Positions 3,240-23,190 of a stretch of DNA of 36,662 bases are shown one piece after another. How positions within the stretch are numbered: position 1 is the first letter of the stretch; the number at the start of each line of letters is the position of its first letter. Below the pieces are notes generated by a model. It was not told the DNA's origin. It searched no databases and worked only from the letters and a program-made list of their open reading frames with translations. This DNA comes from Clostridia bacterium (GTDB lineage Bacteria > Bacillota > Clostridia > Oscillospirales > CAG-272): the NCBI GenBank assembly GCA_017456985.1, contig JAFTIH010000034.1:1-36662 (forward strand), read 5' to 3'. The translations under genes were made by a program, and so were the position numbers.

Positions 3240-4523
3240 TCAAGACGCGCCTTGTGCGTCGTTTTCCATCACTTTAAGAACCTCGCGCACGGCGCTCAAA
3301 ACGCCGATCTTGCCCGACTCGTAGGTCAGACCGCCTTGGAAATAGGCGATGTAGGGCGGACGGATGGGACCGTCTGCCGAAAGCTCGAGCGACGCGCCCT
3401 GCGTAAAGGTTCCCGCCGCCATGATCACGGGGTCGCCGTAGCCGGGCATGTCCCAGGGCTCACAGGTCACGAAGGCATCCACGGGGGAGCCGTACTGAAT
3501 GCCGCGGCAGAACGCCACGAGAAGCTCGGGCGCACCGCACTTGACCTGTTGAATGATGTCGTGGCGCACCTCTTTCGCCCTCGGCTCGGTCTCAAAGCCC
3601 AGCTTTTCAAAGAGATACGCCGCAAAATGCGCGGTTTTCAGCGCCTGTGCCACGGTGTGCGGCGCGTAAAAAAGACCCTTGAACATATTTTTGTTCTGTC
3701 CGAGGCTGGCACCGATCTCAAGTCCCACGCCCGGGGCTGTGAAGCGGTAGCCGCAAAGCTCCACCGCGCGGCGCGTGCCCACGAGATACCCCCCGCACTC
3801 TGCCATACCGCCGCCCGGGTTCTTGATCAGCGAGCCGACCGAGAGGTCCGCGCCCACCATCGAGGGCTCCTTGTCCTCCACGAACTCGCCGTAGCAGTTA
3901 TCCACCATCACGAAGGCGTCACTGCACGCGTGGACGATCTTACAAAGCTCGCCGATCTCATCCACGGAGAGCGACTTGCGGTCAAGATAGCCCTTGGAGC
4001 GCTGAATAAAGGCAACCTTGACCGAGGGGTCGGCAAGCAGTGCCGCGCGCACGCCCTCGTAGTCGGGAAGCCCCTCGGCAGTCAAGGCGACCTCGCTGTA
4101 CTTCACACCGAAATCCTTTAACGAGCCGACGCCCGCCTCGCCCGAAATGCCGATCACCTCGTCGAGGGTGTCGTAGGGCTTGCCCGTCAGGGAAAGCAGG
4201 GTATCACCCGGGCGAAGAAGCCCGAAAAGACCGATGGTGAGCGCGTGCGTCCCCGAAAGGATCGCGGAGCGCACGAACGCCGCCTCCGCGCCAAAGACGC
4301 GCGCGTAGATCTCGTCAAGCACCTCGCGCCCGCGGTCGTCGTAGCCGTAGCCGTCCGTCGCGGCAAAGAGCGCCGCGCTCACGCGGCACGCGCGGAAGGC
4401 GTCCATCACGCGCGCGGTCGCGCGCTCGGCTTGCAGATCGATCTCCCGAAAGGCAGGCGCGAGCGCCGCCTCCGCCTCGGCGGTCAGTCGTTCCAAATCA
4501 AAAGTGTTGCTCATCGTTTTCAT
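3240..4523 (-). CDS. Methionine gamma-lyase family / aluminium resistance family PLP protein (COG4100)
   Basis: A 427-residue fold-type I PLP protein of the Al-resistance family (PF06838), annotated in many Firmicutes as methionine gamma-lyase-like. The signatures are GTHALTIGLFGLLRPGD near residue 100, a VDNCYGEF segment for the PLP aspartate, and the lysine loop GSLIKNPGGGMAECGGY near residue 235. The substrate is not certain; the family name is historical. It overlaps the end of murD by about 25 nt, so the two are translationally linked. An alternative ATG at 4514 (MSNTF...) has better spacing from the AGGA site and resembles family N-termini, so the first three residues are doubtful. Confidence 0.85.
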   Translation of the reverse strand: MKTMSNTFDLERLTAEAEAALAPAFREIDLQAERATARVMDAFRACRVSAALFAATDGYGYDDRGREVLDEIYARVFGAEAAFVRSAILSGTHALTIGLFGLLRPGDTLLSLTGKPYDTLDEVIGISGEAGVGSLKDFGVKYSEVALTAEGLPDYEGVRAALLADPSVKVAFIQRSKGYLDRKSLSVDEIGELCKIVHACSDAFVMVDNCYGEFVEDKEPSMVGADLSVGSLIKNPGGGMAECGGYLVGTRRAVELCGYRFTAPGVGLEIGASLGQNKNMFKGLFYAPHTVAQALKTAHFAAYLFEKLGFETEPRAKEVRHDIIQQVKCGAPELLVAFCRGIQYGSPVDAFVTCEPWDMPGYGDPVIMAAGTFTQGASLELSADGPIRPPYIAYFQGGLTYESGKIGVLSAVREVLKVMENDAQGAS

Positions 4524-5832
4524 TTTCCTGTTCTTTTATTTGTCCGCACAGACGGCGAAAGCATTCGCCTCTGGCTTCATAATCCACGAATTCGTCAAAC
4601 GCCGTCGCCGCAGGCGACAAAAGCACCGTGTCCCCCCGCTCTGCCGCGCCCGACGCCGCAAGAAAGGCGTCGCGCATCCCTAAAAAGCTCGCGTGCGCAA
4701 TCCCCGTCCCCGCAAGGGCGCGTGCCGCTACGGGCGCGCTCTCTCCGAAGAGATAACAAAGCGTGCGCTTGCCGCGCAGGGCGTCCGTCAGCACCTCGTA
4801 GGAGAGCCCCTTTTCTCTGCCGCCGAGCAGCAAATGCAGCCTGCCCTCGCCCGAAAGTGCGGCTAGCGTTATCGCCGTGCGGGAGGGGGTGGTGTCGATG
4901 GAGGAATTGATATAGCGCACGCCGCGCACGTCACACACCCACTCGGCGCGGTGTGCGACACCGCCAAAGCGCATCGCAAGCTCCCTTACGGCACGCGGGG
5001 TGATCTCACCTGCCGCCGCCGCAGACGCGGCAAGCAGGTTTTCTATATTGTGCCGCCCCGAAAGGCGCATTTGCGCGGCGTGGCAAAGCGGGACGCCAAG
5101 CCCCCAAAGCACCCCGTCGCGAAGCGTAAAATCAGCGTCCCCCTCGACAGAAAACCGCCGCGCATCAAGGTCCTCGAAGAGCCCCCGCCGTAATACGGGC
5201 AGGTCGCTCGACAAAGCAAGGCGCCGCTTGGCGGCGGCGTACTCCTCAAAGCTCTTATGCCAGTTTAAATGGTTGGGCGTCAGGTTGGTGAGAACGCCCA
5301 CCGCGAAGCGCGTGTCCATATCCTGAAGCTGGAAGCTCGAAAGCTCTAAAACGCACGCGTCCTCTTGCCGCATCCCGCTCAAAAAGGGGAGCAGGCTCCT
5401 GCCGATGTTGCCGCCAAGATATACCCGCCGTCCGCCCGACGCAAGCAGATGGGCGAGCATCGTCGCGGTGGTGGTCTTGCCGTCGCTCCCCGACACGGCG
5501 TAAATGGGTGCGGGGCAAAGGCGGGCAAAATACTCCGCTTCTCCCATCACGGTGGCACCGCGCAGAGCGGCACGGCATAAAACGGGGCTGTCGGGACGCA
5601 TTGCGGGCGTGCGGAACACGAAATCCCCGCGCGATTCTCCCTCGCCCCCCGCATAGAGCGGAACACCCAGTGAGGAGAGCCAGCGCGGCAGATCCCCCAG
5701 CGCCTCGCGCGGCTTGTCGTCAAAGGCGCAAACGCGCACGCCAAGGGCAACAAGATGTGCAACGAGCGCCCGTCCCGAGCGCCCCAAGCCATAGACGGAG
5801 GCGGTATCGTGTTTCTTTGGTAGCGGCTTCAT
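4498..5832 (-). CDS. murD: UDP-N-acetylmuramoyl-L-alanine:D-glutamate ligase
   Basis: A 444-residue Mur ligase that adds D-glutamate to UDP-MurNAc-L-Ala in the cytoplasmic phase of peptidoglycan synthesis. The N-terminal domain has a Rossmann-like GLGRSGRA (15-22). The central domain has the ATP loop SGSDGKTTTA (114-123) and the LTPNHLNWHKS segment. The C-terminal domain begins near YINSSIDTTPSRT. The length is normal for MurD. GGGAG lies 6 nt before the ATG. It is the first gene of the minus-strand cluster, with a plausible promoter at 5869-5897. It sits apart from other mur genes, in contrast to the dcw cluster arrangement of many bacteria. Confidence 0.93.
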   Translation of the reverse strand: MKPLPKKHDTASVYGLGRSGRALVAHLVALGVRVCAFDDKPREALGDLPRWLSSLGVPLYAGGEGESRGDFVFRTPAMRPDSPVLCRAALRGATVMGEAEYFARLCPAPIYAVSGSDGKTTTATMLAHLLASGGRRVYLGGNIGRSLLPFLSGMRQEDACVLELSSFQLQDMDTRFAVGVLTNLTPNHLNWHKSFEEYAAAKRRLALSSDLPVLRRGLFEDLDARRFSVEGDADFTLRDGVLWGLGVPLCHAAQMRLSGRHNIENLLAASAAAAGEITPRAVRELAMRFGGVAHRAEWVCDVRGVRYINSSIDTTPSRTAITLAALSGEGRLHLLLGGREKGLSYEVLTDALRGKRTLCYLFGESAPVAARALAGTGIAHASFLGMRDAFLAASGAAERGDTVLLSPAATAFDEFVDYEARGECFRRLCGQIKEQENENDEQHF

Positions 5833-5967: not shown

Positions 5968-7353
5968 TTATGCGATTTTTTCTCGGTTTTGACGCTTTTT
6001 GTCCCTTTTGTTTAAGAAAAGCGAGGTGGCTACGTGTAAAATACACACGACGACCCAAGAGATGGGATAGCAAAGGAACAGTCCGCTCAGCGAGTGCAGC
6101 TCCTCCATCGGGAAGAAGACCATCACCCAGATACTGCGAAGCACGACGGTACCGACGACGGAGGAGATCATCGGAATGATGGAGCATCCTCTGCCGCGCA
6201 AGTGTCCCGTCAGCACCTCCATCGCGCCGCAAAGGAAATAGGTTGCAAGGATGACCGTGTTGCGTTCCCTCGTCGCCGCCAGCACGGCGGGAAGATTGCC
6301 CACGGTGCTGTCGATAAACAGCCGCGCGATCTGATCGCAGAACACGAGGCAAAGGGCGCCGACCAGCACGCCCACAAGCACCACCTGCACCAGAGAATAG
6401 AGCAGCGTTTTGGTGACGCGGCGGCGCTCACCCGCCCCCACGTTCTGTCCCGTCACGGTGAGCGACGCCTGATAAAAGCCGTTCATCGCAGTATAGGTCA
6501 GTCCCTCGACCGAGCCGCCGATGGTGTTACCCGAGATGGTCTCCACGGGGAAGGTGTTGACCGCGCTTTGCAGCAGCATATTGGAAACGGAAAAGAGCGA
6601 GCCCTGCACGCCCGACGGGATGCCGATGCGCAGAATATCGCGCACGATGCGGCGGTCAAGGCACACGCGCCGCAAAGAAAAGCGGGTGTCCCCCTCGCGG
6701 CGGGCAAGAACGATCCACACCGCGAGCGCCGAAACATATTGCGAAATGATGGTCGCAAGCGCCACGCCCGCCACGGACAGGTGGCACGCGATGACGAAAA
6801 AGAGGTTGAGCCCCACGTTGACGAGTCCCGAGAGCGCCAGAAGGATCAGCGGGGTGCGCGAGTCACCCACCGAGCGAAGCGTCGCCGCGCCGAAGTTATA
6901 CAGCGCCAAGGCGGGAATGCCCAAAAATACGATGCGGATGTAAAGGAGCGCGCTTTCAAAAATATCGCCGTTGGTCTTCATCAGCACGAGCACGGGGCGG
7001 GAAATGATAAGACCCAACGCGCAAAGAAAGAGTCCGCCGATCAAGGCGAGCAAAAAGGAGGTGTGGACGGTGCGACAAACGCGTTCCCCGTCGTGCGCAC
7101 CGAAGTGATGCGCCACCACGACGCCGCCGCCCGTCGAAAGACCGATGGCGAGGTTGATGATCAGATGGCTGAACGAGGAGGTAGAGCCCACCGCCGCGAG
7201 CGCATTCGGGTCCCCCGAAAACTGCCCCACGACGATCTGGTCCGCCATATTGTAGCACATTTGCAACAGTCCCGTCAGTATGATCGGAACCGCAAACAAA
7301 AAAATCGGAAAAAAAAGAGGACCGTGCGTGAAGTCCTTGGTCTTCGCCGACAT
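5968..7353 (-). CDS. MATE family multidrug/Na+ antiporter
   Basis: A 461-residue polytopic membrane protein with about 12 predicted hydrophobic segments. The N-terminal signature GLLQMCYNMADQIVVGQFSG and the ALAAVGSTSS segment are typical of MATE exporters of the Firmicute VmrA/NorM-like branch, which use Na+ or H+ gradients to expel cationic compounds. The specific substrate cannot be told. The start at 7353 (MSAKTKDFTHG) is chosen for its GGGGAT-type site and because the frame further upstream runs through tandem repeats with a strongly basic, non-membrane translation. The last residues are Lys/Arg-rich (NKRDKKRQNR), as is common for a cytoplasmic tail. Confidence 0.92.
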   Translation of the reverse strand: MSAKTKDFTHGPLFFPIFLFAVPIILTGLLQMCYNMADQIVVGQFSGDPNALAAVGSTSSFSHLIINLAIGLSTGGGVVVAHHFGAHDGERVCRTVHTSFLLALIGGLFLCALGLIISRPVLVLMKTNGDIFESALLYIRIVFLGIPALALYNFGAATLRSVGDSRTPLILLALSGLVNVGLNLFFVIACHLSVAGVALATIISQYVSALAVWIVLARREGDTRFSLRRVCLDRRIVRDILRIGIPSGVQGSLFSVSNMLLQSAVNTFPVETISGNTIGGSVEGLTYTAMNGFYQASLTVTGQNVGAGERRRVTKTLLYSLVQVVLVGVLVGALCLVFCDQIARLFIDSTVGNLPAVLAATRERNTVILATYFLCGAMEVLTGHLRGRGCSIIPMISSVVGTVVLRSIWVMVFFPMEELHSLSGLFLCYPISWVVVCILHVATSLFLNKRDKKRQNREKIA

Positions 7354-11971: not shown

Positions 11972-12952
11972 ATGGATGGAAACAAAAGACCGGATACTAT
12001 GGCGCGCATCGTGACGGCGGCACAGGCTGACGCCTTTATCGCGGATCAGCTTGCAAAGGTCCGCGCAACGGTAGGCGACAAAAAGGTACTGCTCGCGCTT
12101 TCGGGCGGTGTTGACAGCTCGGTCGTTGCCGCACTTCTCGTTAAGGCGATCGGCAAGCAGCTCGTCTGCGTGCACGTCAATCACGGACTGATGCGCAAGG
12201 GCGAAAGCGAGCAGGTCATCAAGATCTTCCGCGACGAGATTGACGCAAACCTCGTTTACGTTGACGCCACCGACCGTTTCCTCGATAAGCTCGCAGGCGT
12301 GTCCGCCCCCGAGGAAAAGCGCAAGATCATCGGCGGCGAGTTCATCCGCGTCTTTGAGGAGGAGGCTCGCAAGCAGGAGGGCATCGAGTTCCTCGCACAG
12401 GGTACCATTTACCCCGACATCCTTGAGAGCGACGGCGTCAAGGCGCACCACAACGTCGGCGGCTTGCCCGAGGACCTGCAGTTCTCCCTCATCGAGCCCA
12501 TCAAGCTGCTGTATAAGGACGAGGTCCGCGTCGTCGGACGCGCGCTGGGGCTCCCCCGCGACCTCGTTGACCGCCAGCCCTTCCCCGGCCCCGGTCTTGG
12601 CGTCCGTTGCCTGGGTGCCATAACGCGCGACCGTCTGCACGCCCTGCGCGAGGCTGACGCCATCCTGCGCGAGGAGTTTGACAAGGCTGGGCTTGCCTAC
12701 AAGGTATGGCAGTACTTCATCGCCGTTCCCGACGTCAAGAGCGTCGGCGTCAAGGACGGCAAACGCTACGAAGGCTGGCCTGCCATCATCCGCGCCGTCA
12801 ACACCACCGACGCGATGAGCGCGACCATCGAGGAGCTGGAATATTCCCTTCTGCACCGCATCACCGACCGCATCACCCACGAGGTGGACGGCATCAACCG
12901 CGTGCTGTATGACTTAACGCCTAAACCCATCGGCACGATCGAGTGGGAATAA
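11972..12952 (+). CDS. guaA: GMP synthase ATP-pyrophosphatase subunit (no glutaminase domain)
   Basis: A 326-residue protein that matches only the C-terminal two thirds of bacterial GuaA: the PP-loop SGGVDSSVV (44-52), FLAQGTIYPDILES, the FPGPGLGVRCLG segment and the terminal TPKPIGTIEWE. It adenylates XMP and aminates it to GMP. The class I glutaminase domain that normally supplies ammonia (about 190 residues) is absent, and nothing like it lies upstream: the gene has its own promoter and a good GGAGG site. The enzyme must use a separate glutaminase subunit, as in archaea, or free ammonia. The 3' end is the attachment site of the island that follows; the coding end is intact. Confidence 0.92.
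   Translation: MDGNKRPDTMARIVTAAQADAFIADQLAKVRATVGDKKVLLALSGGVDSSVVAALLVKAIGKQLVCVHVNHGLMRKGESEQVIKIFRDEIDANLVYVDATDRFLDKLAGVSAPEEKRKIIGGEFIRVFEEEARKQEGIEFLAQGTIYPDILESDGVKAHHNVGGLPEDLQFSLIEPIKLLYKDEVRVVGRALGLPRDLVDRQPFPGPGLGVRCLGAITRDRLHALREADAILREEFDKAGLAYKVWQYFIAVPDVKSVGVKDGKRYEGWPAIIRAVNTTDAMSATIEELEYSLLHRITDRITHEVDGINRVLYDLTPKPIGTIEWE
12940..12950 (+). repeat. Island attachment repeat, left copy (inside the guaA 3' end)
   Basis: CGAGTGGGAAT lies within the last codons of guaA and is repeated exactly at 15403-15413. The 3' end of guaA is a known integration hotspot for tyrosine-recombinase islands. Confidence 0.75.
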
Positions 12953-13011
12953 TTTCAGAGGTCGTAAAACGCCTGTAATATCAAGGGTTTTCGAACTTTC
13001 GAGGCCACTTG

Positions 13012-13030
13012 TGGCAACAAAATGGCAACA
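13012..13030 (+). repeat. Paired TGGCAACA sites, left end
   Basis: TGGCAACA at 13012 and 13023 (start to start 11 bp). The same pair with the same spacing and orientation occurs at 15285-15303. By analogy with tyrosine-recombinase elements these are likely arm-type integrase sites. Confidence 0.6.
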
Positions 13031-13061
13031 TTTTTAAGAGAATAATTGCAGCTGGCTTATA

Positions 13062-13100
13062 AATGCCCGGAATCCCTTGGAATTAGGGCTTCCGGGCATT
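13062..13100 (+). terminator. Hairpin downstream of guaA, probable terminator
   Basis: AATGCCCGGAA and TTCCGGGCATT form 11 bp, extended by CCCT/AGGG past one mismatch, with a 7-nt loop. It is followed by ATATTT, a modest U-tract. It would end guaA transcription and shield the island. Confidence 0.6.
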
Positions 13101-13161
13101 ATATTTCGATTGACATCAATATTTGTCCACTCGTTCTCTATATCCCATAAAAATAAAATAC

Positions 13162-13170
13162 TGTTATACT
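13162..13170 (+). promoter_or_regulatory. Possible extended -10 promoter of the tRNA-like / HEPN operon
   Basis: TG-T-TATACT is an extended -10 without a convincing -35 at the right distance. It lies 43 nt before the tRNA-like element, and no other promoter is evident before the genes. Confidence 0.4.
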
Positions 13171-13212
13171 GTAAAAATATATCTTGCGTATATGGAATTC
13201 TTTGCTGTATTT

Positions 13213-13304
13213 CCTCAAGTGGTGATTGGTAAAACGCCTACCTTTATGGTGATTCGCTCACTCTCAAAGTAGGAAGAACAGGTTCGATTCCTGTCTTGAG
13301 GCCA
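13213..13304 (+). tRNA. tRNA-like element with an enlarged anticodon arm
   Basis: A 7-bp perfect acceptor stem CCTCAAG / CTTGAGG (13213-13219, 13295-13301), T8, a D-arm with GTG/CGC and a TTGGTAAAA loop carrying the GG, a 4-nt variable loop AAGA, and a fully canonical T-arm ACAGG-TTCGATT-CCTGT (13278-13294). CCA follows at once (13302-13304), which leaves no separate discriminator base. The anticodon stem CCTAC/GTAGG (13237-13241, 13269-13273) encloses 27 nt instead of 7. Those form a 6x6 internal loop and an inner hairpin GGTGA-ttcgc-TCACT. One base (13237) is shared by the D and anticodon stems. It cannot present a normal anticodon. It could be a degenerate tRNA, a precursor with a 20-nt insert, or a functional tRNA mimic. 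It ends 24 nt before the next start codon. Confidence 0.6.
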
Positions 13305-13327
13305 AAATATTAATTTGAGAAGAGAAT

Positions 13328-14215
13328 ATGAATAGTCGAGCTTTTAGAAAATTCAAAACAGAAATAGGTCAAGCGAACCATTTTTTGATTACAATTATGA
13401 TTGGCTTAGATGCGGTTGAAGATGGTGCTGAAAAACGAGAGTCCTTTAATACAACATGGAATCCAGAAAGCAAAACAGCATCTGTTGCGAGAAGTAAGCA
13501 CTATGCCATAAAGTCGGCGTTGGCTTGGACTGTTGATAATCTTGATATGTACTTAAGACTCTGCAATCGTGAACCAAGACTTTATTCTGATAGCGAAAGC
13601 ACCGAAATTGCAGATACAGGGCATAGTATATACAAGAAATTTCGCTGCGTGATTAACAACCACAAAAAACTCACATTAGATAAATTTGCTTATGTGGACT
13701 TGCTCATTTGCTGGCGTAACAATACTGTTCATTTCGATGCTGAAAACCAGTTGATGCATGATTCGCTTAATTACTTCAAGAATGTTCCAGCTAATGATGT
13801 GGTTACAAATAAGTATCATTTGGATGTATCGCAAATGTTGGATCGTTTCAACAGAGGAGAGTGTCCTACTTTTAAAGAAGCGGCAACATTAATTAGTATG
13901 ACAATTCATTTTGTAGAGGAGCTTGACAGTATTCTTCTGCGTGATATAGACCAATATCGATTTCTTGAAACCAGTCTATTTAAAATGCTTAAATCCGAAA
14001 AGAAAACGGGCGTTTTTAGTCTTAGAAACACCACCCCAGAAAAGAGGAAAAAGAAGCTTAAACAATTTTTTGTTACAGCTGGAGTTTCGGAAGAATTTTA
14101 TAATGGAGATGGCGAAAGATTTCTTGATGAGGTTGTTAACCTAAAGGAAGACGAGTTTATAAGTAAAGTCCTTGAGAAGCGTAAAGAGGAAGAAAAGAAA
14201 GCAGAGGAATCATAA
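13328..14215 (+). CDS. Unknown protein with HEPN-type RNxxxH motif (HEPN1)
   Basis: A 295-residue soluble, helix-rich protein with no family that I recognise. The key feature is R130-N-N-T-V-H135 in a hydrophobic helix (LLICWRNNTVHFDAEN). This matches the Rx4-6H motif of HEPN ribonucleases, preceded by a long helix (KSALAWTVDNLDMYL) as in that fold. The C-terminal 60 residues are Lys/Glu-rich and likely coiled coil. Codon use is AT-rich, unlike the flanking genes, which points to horizontal transfer. The ATG has only a weak purine-rich site (GAGAAGAG). The tRNA-like element lies directly upstream and HEPN2 29 nt downstream. HEPN toxins often cut tRNA or other RNA during phage attack, so a defence role is inferred, not shown. 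Confidence 0.7.
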   Translation: MNSRAFRKFKTEIGQANHFLITIMIGLDAVEDGAEKRESFNTTWNPESKTASVARSKHYAIKSALAWTVDNLDMYLRLCNREPRLYSDSESTEIADTGHSIYKKFRCVINNHKKLTLDKFAYVDLLICWRNNTVHFDAENQLMHDSLNYFKNVPANDVVTNKYHLDVSQMLDRFNRGECPTFKEAATLISMTIHFVEELDSILLRDIDQYRFLETSLFKMLKSEKKTGVFSLRNTTPEKRKKKLKQFFVTAGVSEEFYNGDGERFLDEVVNLKEDEFISKVLEKRKEEEKKAEES

Positions 14216-14244
14216 AACTTCTTTGCTTGTAAGGGGGTGTAATT

Positions 14245-15249
14245 GTGTTGAATCCGGTTCAAAAGGCGGCTTATGAATTAATACAAGCCGACGCTCGGTT
14301 TCTTTACACCCTAACTGTCATTCAAAGAAATGCAAAAAATATCAGCAGCAACTATATTATGATGAGCCAACCTTATATTGGGCTGTTTACAGACGGAGCA
14401 GAACAATGGTGTCAGAAGCTTGGATTAGGTGCTCCTCAATTTACTGATACAGAGAAAACATACTACACCGCCTTGCGGCAAAGTCATAAGCTCTATGAAA
14501 TGTCATACTCAGATTATTTATCTGCGTTGATGGAAAAGTTCAAGGCAAGCGATGACTATTTTTATAAGATCCGTCGCCTTCGTGAAAAACTATTGGGATA
14601 CTACAATGTGGGTACTGATCTGTGTAATAGCCATTTCTGCGGAAATACGATTTTGTGCGCATTGTATACTCCGGTAGATACTTTGAATGACAAAGAAATC
14701 GGTCCTTGGATTCGAGATATTAGCGTGGTGTCGGGAAAACTTGCAGGCTTTTTTGATTGCAAAAACTTCCCACCGTACAATTATGACAATAATATTTTGG
14801 TAAAATACGAGGATTATCATTTTTACAAGAATTGCCCGCTTAAAAATAAAACGGAGCTTGGTTTTTTACTCTTTTCCATTCTTTGTAGTGTTAATTATGC
14901 CATTAAATTTATAGACCAATATTTTATTGAGGAGATTCCACAAAAATTCAAGTTTGCTTATCTTCAATACTACTATCTTTGCGATTTCATAAAAGAACTT
15001 AATGAAGCTAACGGTACAAATTTCCACCTTGATGACTCTTTAAAGAACAGATCATTTAGAAATTGTCTTGCTCACTATGGACTCGGGCAATTTCTGTCAG
15101 AAAGTGACTTGATTGTAGACGATCCACTGAAAGGATTAACGAACAAAGCATTTAACATAGACTATTTTTCGACAAAGGAGAAACTATATTGCTTCCTTCA
15201 AGAATTGAGTGATCAAATAAAAGCCGAAATACTATTGCCTTGCTTTTGA
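14245..15249 (+). CDS. Unknown protein with HEPN-type RNxxxH motif (HEPN2)
   Basis: A 334-residue soluble protein starting with GTG, after a good AAGGGGGTG site. I recognise no family. Near the C-terminus SFRNCLAHYGLG holds R272-N-C-L-A-H277, an Rx4H motif that fits a HEPN active site; the preceding segment (YLQYYYLCDFIKELNEANG) is a long helix. The N-terminal part is rich in Tyr and Cys and has no obvious nucleotidyltransferase, helicase or protease motif. It differs in sequence from HEPN1, so the pair is not a recent duplication. The short gap and shared composition indicate one operon. A two-subunit nuclease or a sensor/effector pair are both possible. Confidence 0.7.
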   Translation: MLNPVQKAAYELIQADARFLYTLTVIQRNAKNISSNYIMMSQPYIGLFTDGAEQWCQKLGLGAPQFTDTEKTYYTALRQSHKLYEMSYSDYLSALMEKFKASDDYFYKIRRLREKLLGYYNVGTDLCNSHFCGNTILCALYTPVDTLNDKEIGPWIRDISVVSGKLAGFFDCKNFPPYNYDNNILVKYEDYHFYKNCPLKNKTELGFLLFSILCSVNYAIKFIDQYFIEEIPQKFKFAYLQYYYLCDFIKELNEANGTNFHLDDSLKNRSFRNCLAHYGLGQFLSESDLIVDDPLKGLTNKAFNIDYFSTKEKLYCFLQELSDQIKAEILLPCF

Positions 15250-15284
15250 AATTATTTGATTATCTGATATAATATAAGCTTCCG

Positions 15285-15303
15285 TGGCAACACTATGGCA
15301 ACA
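15285..15303 (+). repeat. Paired TGGCAACA sites, right end
   Basis: TGGCAACA at 15285 and 15296, the same 11-bp spacing and orientation as the pair at 13012-13030. Together they flank the island cargo. Confidence 0.6.
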
Positions 15304-15402
15304 AAAAATCAGATAGCCCATACTGTCTGAATAATGAAAGCAATCAAAATAATCCGAGCGAAATCCCATAAGCAAATCTGTTTAAGATTTATTTTTCAGG
15401 AG

Positions 15403-15413
15403 CGAGTGGGAAT
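15403..15413 (+). repeat. Island attachment repeat, right copy
   Basis: CGAGTGGGAAT, identical to the guaA terminal sequence at 12940-12950. It marks the right end; GC-rich sequence of the host type resumes after it. Confidence 0.75.
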
Positions 15414-15418
15414 GAGGC

Positions 15419-15513
15419 ATTTGCCACAGGCAAATACAATGAAATCCCCCCTCTCGGGTGAGATAAATCTGCTGCGCAGATGAAATCGCTGCGGCGATGG
15501 GTGGATTTCATTC
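15419..15513. repeat. Hairpin array B (TGAAATC word, inverted at the end)
   Basis: Hairpins ATTTGCC-aca-GGCAAAT (15419-15435), ATCTGC-tgc-GCAGAT (15467-15481) and ATCGC-tgcg-GCGAT (15485-15498). The word TGAAATC occurs at 15440 and 15482 and its complement GATTTCA near 15504, so AATGAAATCC and GGATTTCATT form terminal inverted repeats around part of the array. The 328-nt gap 15250-15577 holds this array, the right island end and a terminator. Confidence 0.6.
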
Positions 15514-22977: not shown

Positions 22978-23134
22978 GTGAAGTTTTCGCTGTCGCGAAA
23001 GTGAAGTTGCTACGCAGTGAAGTTTGTGCTAAGCACAAGTGAAGTTAAGTTTGCCCACTTTGCCAAAGGCAAAACTTCACTATCCGCAGGATAACTTCAC
23101 TTACGAAGTAAACTTCACTTGCCCGCAAGGGCAA
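22978..23134. repeat. Hairpin array C (GTGAAGT word, mirrored)
   Basis: Word and hairpin alternate with almost no spare bases. GTGAAGT occurs at 22978, 23001, 23017 and 23039, and its complement ACTTCAC at 23074, 23094 and 23112. Between them are TTTCGC-tgtc-GCGAAA, TGC-tac-GCA, TTGTGC-taa-GCACAA, TTTGCC-aaa-GGCAAA, TATCC-gca-GGATA, TTAC-gaa-GTAA and TTGCCC-gcaa-GGGCAA. The word turns over at about 23050, so the array is itself an inverted repeat of arrays. The 283-nt gap 22908-23190 holds only this and the terminator. Confidence 0.85.
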
Positions 23135-23190
23135 ACATCGTTTAGCGTGAATACTCCGATAAGAGTATCACGCCAAGGTACCGTGTTTTT

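Follow-up and report, generated by a model that had tools for sequence, protein, structure and literature searches.

A tRNA-like RNA linked to a putative HEPN ribonuclease on a small island at guaA and in distantly related bacteria

A 36,662-nucleotide (nt) stretch of a Clostridia genome (GTDB lineage Oscillospirales, CAG-272; contig JAFTIH010000034.1 of assembly GCA_017456985.1), here called the window, contains an island of 2.46 kb (12951–15413) inserted at the 3′ end of guaA. Its cargo, all encoded on the forward strand, comprises a tRNA-mimic RNA (13213–13304), a 295-residue protein of an unnamed family, P1 (13328–14215), and a 334-residue protein, P2 (14245–15249). A preliminary description of this DNA had proposed that the RNA and both proteins form a new defence system. 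We report that the RNA and P1 recur as a pair in bacteria that are only distantly related, a pattern suggestive of a toxin or phage-defence system under RNA control that has not been described before, and that P2 is separable cargo.

The window RNA has a 7-bp acceptor stem (13213–13219 with 13295–13301) followed by CCA (13302–13304), and a T arm (13278–13294) in which five base pairs, ACAGG with CCTGT, close a TTCGATT loop. Its anticodon arm (13237–13273) is enlarged: the two strands of a 5-bp stem, CCTAC and GTAGG, lie 27 nt apart and enclose a conserved CTTTAT (13242–13247), an inner hairpin of GTGA and TCAC (13249–13261) and the sequence TCTCAAA (13262–13268). The RNA sits inside the island, adjoining the P1 gene, and not at an island end. 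Taken on its own, the window copy is unconvincing, and its folding energy does not stand out from that of shuffled sequences (z = −1.02; 25 of 200 were as good). It nevertheless stands above chance by its match to R1, a covariance model built from five alphaproteobacterial RNAs, which finds it at exactly 13213–13305 (47.0 bits, E = 4.7e-10).

RNAs of the same fold were present upstream of P1, on its strand, in all 15 distinct P1 loci, which come from Clostridia and Pseudomonadota (the window, L005, L006, L011, L012, L013, L015, L016, L017, L018, L019, L021, L022, L026 and L041). The end of the acceptor stem lies 7–26 nt from the assigned P1 start in these loci, and the start in L019 might be 12 nt further on. 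The same RNA was seen in L014, a near copy of L013, and L004, where P1 has the same sequence as in L005, stands outside the count. All 10 RNAs that had not gone into R1 were recovered by it. Seven of these, the window's included, came up with default filters; with filters off, the RNAs of L012 and L026 reached 37.5 and 26.1 bits; and in L041, which was discovered after R1 was built, the RNA lay at the predicted place (35.8 bits, E = 1e-8). Across 170 kb of 14 P1 loci, all 12 matches at E ≤ 1e-5 fell just upstream of P1 on the same strand, and the weaker ones, with E up to 5, consisted of four antisense matches at the same sites and three elsewhere.

The fold is also supported by covariation. 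Among 12 aligned RNAs, 96.9% of 293 cells were paired and 22 of 25 pairs had changed on both sides, counts that lean towards the model because the alignment (A7) was fitted to the structure of R1. The covariation score was 0.780, compared with 0.290 ± 0.029 after shuffling (0 of 500 as high) and at most 0.173 for slid structures. Conservation of the tRNA-like element beside P1 and its covariation, both raised in the preliminary description, are thus borne out, and RNA and P1 are well supported as one unit. Of 13 homologue loci searched with the Rfam tRNA model (RF00005), a set without L041, nine had a match that passed the gathering score. An unconstrained three-helix parse of 14 of the 15 loci, L026 left out, was dropped as weak statistical evidence given its control scores: it was not specific, with a score of 17 at 10 of 14 real sites and in 2 of 112 control stretches, and with 97 of the 112 controls scoring 14–16 and 76 scoring 15–16.

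Searches beyond the P1 loci added little. R1 at E ≤ 1e-16 returned the known L019 site alone among 397 genomes of one order; scoring was confined to 10 candidates in each genome out of several hundred, and the scan therefore says little about RNAs that lack P1. Two exact-pattern scans of viral contigs yielded 10 contigs, none of which had P1 (by tblastn) or an R1 match at the pattern site. L052 has one R1 match, of 76 nt, away from the pattern site.

In sequence, the acceptor stem and T arm of these RNAs conform to the rules for tRNA. Six of the 15 encode an NCCA end (L005, L006, L013, L018, L022 and L041), CCA directly follows the paired acceptor in the window, L011 and L012, and the other six have no CCA. 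The anticodon arm departs from these rules and is where all 15 are enlarged, with 21–37 nt between the strands of the 5-bp stem in place of a 7-nt anticodon loop with a readable anticodon. The 5′ strand of the arm starts with CUUYA in 14 of 15 RNAs, the 3′ strand ends with ARA in 13 of 15, and a covarying hairpin lies between, giving a conserved internal loop of 5′ CUUYAN and 3′ YYUYARA. As this is where a tRNA presents its anticodon, the enlarged arm is likely to be the contact site for P1.

P1 is a putative HEPN endoribonuclease, an assignment drawn from an RNxxxH motif, predicted helices and one sub-threshold HEPN_Apea match. The motif, RNNTVH (R130 to H135; 13715–13732), conforms to the HEPN catalytic pattern RX4–6H. 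W-R-N-x3-H (W129, R130, N131 and H135) is invariant in all 14 rows of the P1 alignment (A3), whose members are 25–82% identical to P1, and is present in L026 and L041. An AlphaFold2 model of P1 is all-helical and of fair confidence (predicted local distance difference test 83.7; predicted template modelling score 0.82), and the HEPN_Apea match comes from the P1 of L026 (E = 0.0068). P1 of the window had no match in Pfam, PADLOC or NCBIfam. Among 14 P1 members, no family was convincing: the best matches were HTH_25 in Pfam (E = 0.0059, one member), Csm2 in PADLOC (E = 0.004, one member), an unnamed PHROGs family (E = 0.0033, three members) and an NCBIfam match at E = 0.058. Eight Pfam families were matched by any of the 14 at E ≤ 1, and Abi_2 was absent from them.

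P1 is rare. It was found in 2 of 391 genomes of the class (its own included), in 2 of 345 genomes of one family and 2 of 219 of one phylum (the central genome included in each), and in 1 of 139 genomes of the window's phylum, its own; each of 12 carrying genomes or records had a single copy. It occurs in mobile and in defence settings. Three IMG/VR contigs carry it (L005, L021 and L022, the last with a tape-measure gene), integrase or primase genes occur at L016, L017 and L019, and in L006 it lies on a plasmid typed as conjugative, near ApeA, a caspase-family protein and a RES-family protein. Other neighbours include a HamB-like helicase (L017), PDC-S39 (L018) and an HsdR_N/NACHT protein (L019). 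A plasmid scan with three P1 queries returned one Sinorhizobium plasmid only, two queries of phage records found no P1 relative, and a repeat of the viral scan gave no further relatives. By eye, a 144-residue open reading frame (ORF) of HD-hydrolase type follows P1 in the three related loci L013 (7494–7928), L014 (6982–7416) and L004 (298–732), and an integrase-like ORF with an inverted-repeat stretch precedes the RNA in L041 (806–1400), suggesting a further type of mobile setting.

P2 has an RNxxxH motif of its own, RNCLAH (R272 to H277; 15058–15075), invariant in all six rows of its alignment (A8). The motif of P1 is likewise invariant (14 of 14) and the two proteins show no relation by profile comparison, in agreement with the earlier view of two unrelated proteins that each carry RNxxxH. 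By ORF listings, the window, L011 and L012 are the only loci in which P2 adjoins both the RNA and P1. At the P2 relatives L008, L009 and L010, the 4 kb that were fetched show no P1, and R1 gave no match there at E ≤ 5; P2 was rejected as a core part on these grounds. No P2 relatives were found in viral contigs or on plasmids. The interpretation first proposed is thus supported in part: relatives of P1 lie in viral contigs, on a plasmid, at integrase or primase loci and beside defence genes, and P2 can be separated from it. The RNA–P1 finding is stronger than first stated and the P2 part weaker.

Several features of P2 loci stand apart from this. In L012 (1255–2088), a P2 relative beside P1 is truncated by an in-frame stop directly after the RNxxxH motif. 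Upstream in L011 lies part of another copy of P2 (about 1050–1180), and between P1 and P2 a 609-residue ORF without clear family (3472–5301). Further downstream (about 6500–6640), a TGACAACA doublet with GCGAGTGGGAAT resembles the window's island at its right end; guaA was not seen in the stretch that was fetched. In L010 (405–2496), a distant P2 relative (36%) overlaps an upstream 367-residue ORF that matches nothing in Pfam or PADLOC; the two may form a separate two-gene system.

The 3′ part of guaA (GMP synthase, the host gene and integration target) occupies 11972–12952 and ends in GTIEWE; IEWE is the C-terminal end of guaA in L035 and L036 too. An 11-bp direct repeat, CGAGTGGGAAT, occurs at the guaA end (12940–12950) and at the outer boundary of the island (15403–15413). 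The G+C fraction falls to 0.36–0.38 within the island, against 0.47–0.65 elsewhere in the window (in 1-kb intervals). Near both ends stand TGGCAACA doublets (13011–13030 and 15284–15303), in the same orientation, and a terminator-like hairpin, by consensus match only, lies between the left end and the cargo (13076–13096). The repeat, the low G+C content and the paired doublets together confirm the insertion at guaA that had been proposed.

We compared the doublets across genomes. The doublet GTGGCAACANNATGGCAACA (≤2 mismatches) has two copies in the 1.8-Mb genome of origin, at 13011 and 15284, in the same orientation and none elsewhere. At ≤1 mismatch, it occurs in 3 of 98 genomes searched, its own included, and in 0 of 59 other genomes of the same genus. 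In genome G1212, a GTGGCAACANNATGGCAACA doublet lies about 60 nt past the guaA stop, matching the arrangement in the window, and is followed by regulator-like and excisionase-like ORFs (by eye) and then by a tyrosine integrase with the arm-binding domain Arm-DNA-bind_4; the start of another G1212 contig (L040) resembles, by eye, the right end of the window's island. In G1209, the doublet, with one mismatch, is again just past guaA. An integrase of the G1212 type was not found in the genome of origin at E ≤ 1e-3 (assembly 93.6% complete). Because such pairs also stand beside guaA next to an arm-binding integrase in a related genome, the most fitting interpretation of the TGGCAACA pairs is as integrase arm sites of a mini-element that lacks an integrase. 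They appear to belong with integration machinery, and not with the candidate defence system. From the doublets after guaA in G1212 and G1209, with an integrase in the former, the island looks like a non-autonomous derivative of G1212-like integrase elements. Genomic islands that use guaA as integration site have reportedly been found before (PMC9376610 among others); the present one has the same target and differs in having no integrase and spanning just 2.46 kb. Outside it, a weak Gut-1-like match lies just beyond the right end (15437–15491, E = 0.062), and a Gut-1 RNA match above gathering score at 23069–23143.

We propose that P1 is a HEPN ribonuclease held in check by a tRNA-mimic RNA antitoxin, a mechanism that, taken whole, we judge to have about an even chance of being right. 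Its closest precedent is AbiF, described as a HEPN protein with an RφxxxH motif that is neutralised by the product of an RNA gene just in front of its own (PMC12373285). For the RNA, the nearest parallel is YrlA: its tRNA-like domain, it has been suggested, might inhibit an anticodon nuclease by competition (PMC7790460). These precedents, together with the RNA–P1 linkage, are why we favour a tRNA-directed HEPN ribonuclease with an RNA antitoxin. The RNA has a tRNA fold, in which acceptor, D and T arms are joined by an anticodon arm that an additional hairpin and the conserved internal loop make longer. It would be transcribed immediately before P1 and probably excised by tRNA-processing enzymes of the cell. 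The natural substrate of P1 would be tRNA, most likely at the anticodon loop, and the RNA would act as antitoxin by occupying P1 as an uncleavable or slowly cleaved pseudo-substrate. Phage infection, by halting host transcription or damaging the short-lived RNA, would free P1 to cut tRNA and stop translation. The island may have been moved as a non-autonomous guaA element by an integrase acting in trans. We put forward more tentatively, and as somewhat short of an even chance, that this is a new toxin-antitoxin or abortive-infection class, in which the antitoxin RNA mimics an entire tRNA, its anticodon arm extended, and blocks a HEPN anticodon nuclease until phage infection causes the mimic to be lost; such an antitoxin would have evolved from the substrate of its own toxin.

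Besides the lean of the pair counts towards R1, several observations weigh against this proposal. ARAGORN called no tRNA at the RNA site in the window, L005 or L006; the Rfam tRNA model did not reach E = 10 at the window RNA and stayed below its gathering score in L012, L016, L017 and L021. R1 itself scores ordinary tRNAs: in the genome of origin it gave 15 matches at E ≤ 1, the window copy of 93 nt and 14 others of 67–77 nt, of which three (Arg, Arg and Gly tRNAs by ARAGORN) outscore the window RNA, and a check of four matches identified tRNAs for Arg, Gly, Arg and Lys. The arm of the L041 RNA is enlarged but its loop differs and lacks CUUYA, and the internal loop is therefore not universal (14 of 15). 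Each locus has one RNA copy at E ≤ 1e-5, with no RNA repeats, and no terminator-like site lies between RNA and P1 in the window (13304 to 13328), both unlike type III toxin-antitoxin systems. On the protein side, a profile search of the sequences in PDB was empty up to E = 10, as was a comparison of profiles between P1 and the ApeA protein from L006.

The spacing of 7–26 nt between acceptor stem and assigned P1 start at the 15 loci, and the missing terminator in the window, would also suit a cis-acting leader, in which P1 or a tRNA-processing enzyme cuts the fold within the P1 mRNA and so sets P1 expression, with no role in trans. We regard this as unlikely: keeping all the tRNA arms is more than a cleavage site needs, and the enlarged anticodon arm suggests a partner that binds the whole fold. 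Similarly improbable, in our view, is a sensor or activator, whether as bait for tRNA-modifying, tRNA-cutting or tRNA-repairing enzymes of phages or as a cofactor for P1 activity. A strict tRNA fold would be good bait, and AbiF-like systems have been discussed as lying at the origin of Cas13 (PMC12373285), but a free HEPN ribonuclease would be expected to need an antidote. In 14 of 15 RNAs, the CUUUA or CUUCA next to the anticodon stem on its 3′ side could be read as U33 and then UUA or UCA, matching the UAA and UGA stops, in a working suppressor tRNA whose extra hairpin is an intron, and 6 of 15 encode the NCCA end; however, CUUYA is missing in L041, position 37 is U or C in 10 of the other 14, no splicing signal came to light, although none was looked for, and by eye the loop bases may simply pair across the loop. 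We consider a suppressor very unlikely. Least probable of all is a passenger tRNA or attachment-site relic of integration: tRNA genes are common integration sites and a tRNA-Pro adjoins one P2 relative (L009), but the RNA accompanies P1 in both Clostridia and Pseudomonadota with a common anticodon-arm extension that tRNAs lack, sits within the window's island beside a gene and not at its end, and shows covariation and the blind match in L041.

The proposed pairing of a HEPN toxin with a tRNA-mimic antitoxin would be easily overlooked. Annotation from Pfam, NCBIfam, PADLOC, PHROGs or PDB would miss P1 because no convincing family was found there, and standard tRNA finders miss the RNA or may misname it. 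Among the literature matches listed, judged by title or the start of the abstract and with subscription journals mostly outside the search, none paired a tRNA-like RNA with a HEPN protein, in line with the earlier remark that no described system of such make-up was known.

With AbiF and its RNA (RCd22, the abiF RNA), the system shares the HEPN RφxxxH motif, a structured non-coding RNA directly upstream and prophage carriage, as these are described for AbiF (PMC12373285). It differs in that P1 members lack Abi_2 (E ≤ 1) and the RNA has a tRNA fold and is present in one copy. Rfam, which we take to include the abiF RNA motif, gave no match to it in 12900–15500 of the window or in 13 homologue loci. 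Like the type III systems ToxIN, AbiQ and CptNI, the RNA gene directly precedes the putative toxin gene (15 of 15 loci, by position only), and neutralisation of protein by RNA is proposed; in contrast to them, the window system has neither RNA repeats nor a terminator between its parts, and the P1 model is all-helical, in contrast to a ToxN-type protein.

YrlA, a Y RNA of rsr-yrlBA-rtcBA operons, is likewise a non-coding RNA with a tRNA-like domain encoded beside proteins (PMC7790460). Here, an RNxxxH protein takes the place of Rsr as neighbour, and the RNA forms a cloverleaf whose anticodon arm is enlarged. PrrC and RloC are HEPN-type ribonucleases that act on tRNA anticodon loops in phage defence, as we propose for P1; they differ in carrying NTPase domains and in being governed by proteins or DNA signals and not by a tRNA mimic. 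In how it works, the system is probably like the RNA-controlled HEPN systems, although it fails the marks of AbiF that were tested (protein family and RNA motif) and two of those of type III (repeats and terminator). To our knowledge, RNA antitoxins are hairpins or pseudoknots; an antitoxin that copies a whole tRNA would, if true, mean that a toxin is restrained by a likeness of what it attacks, and the likeness would itself reveal the target.

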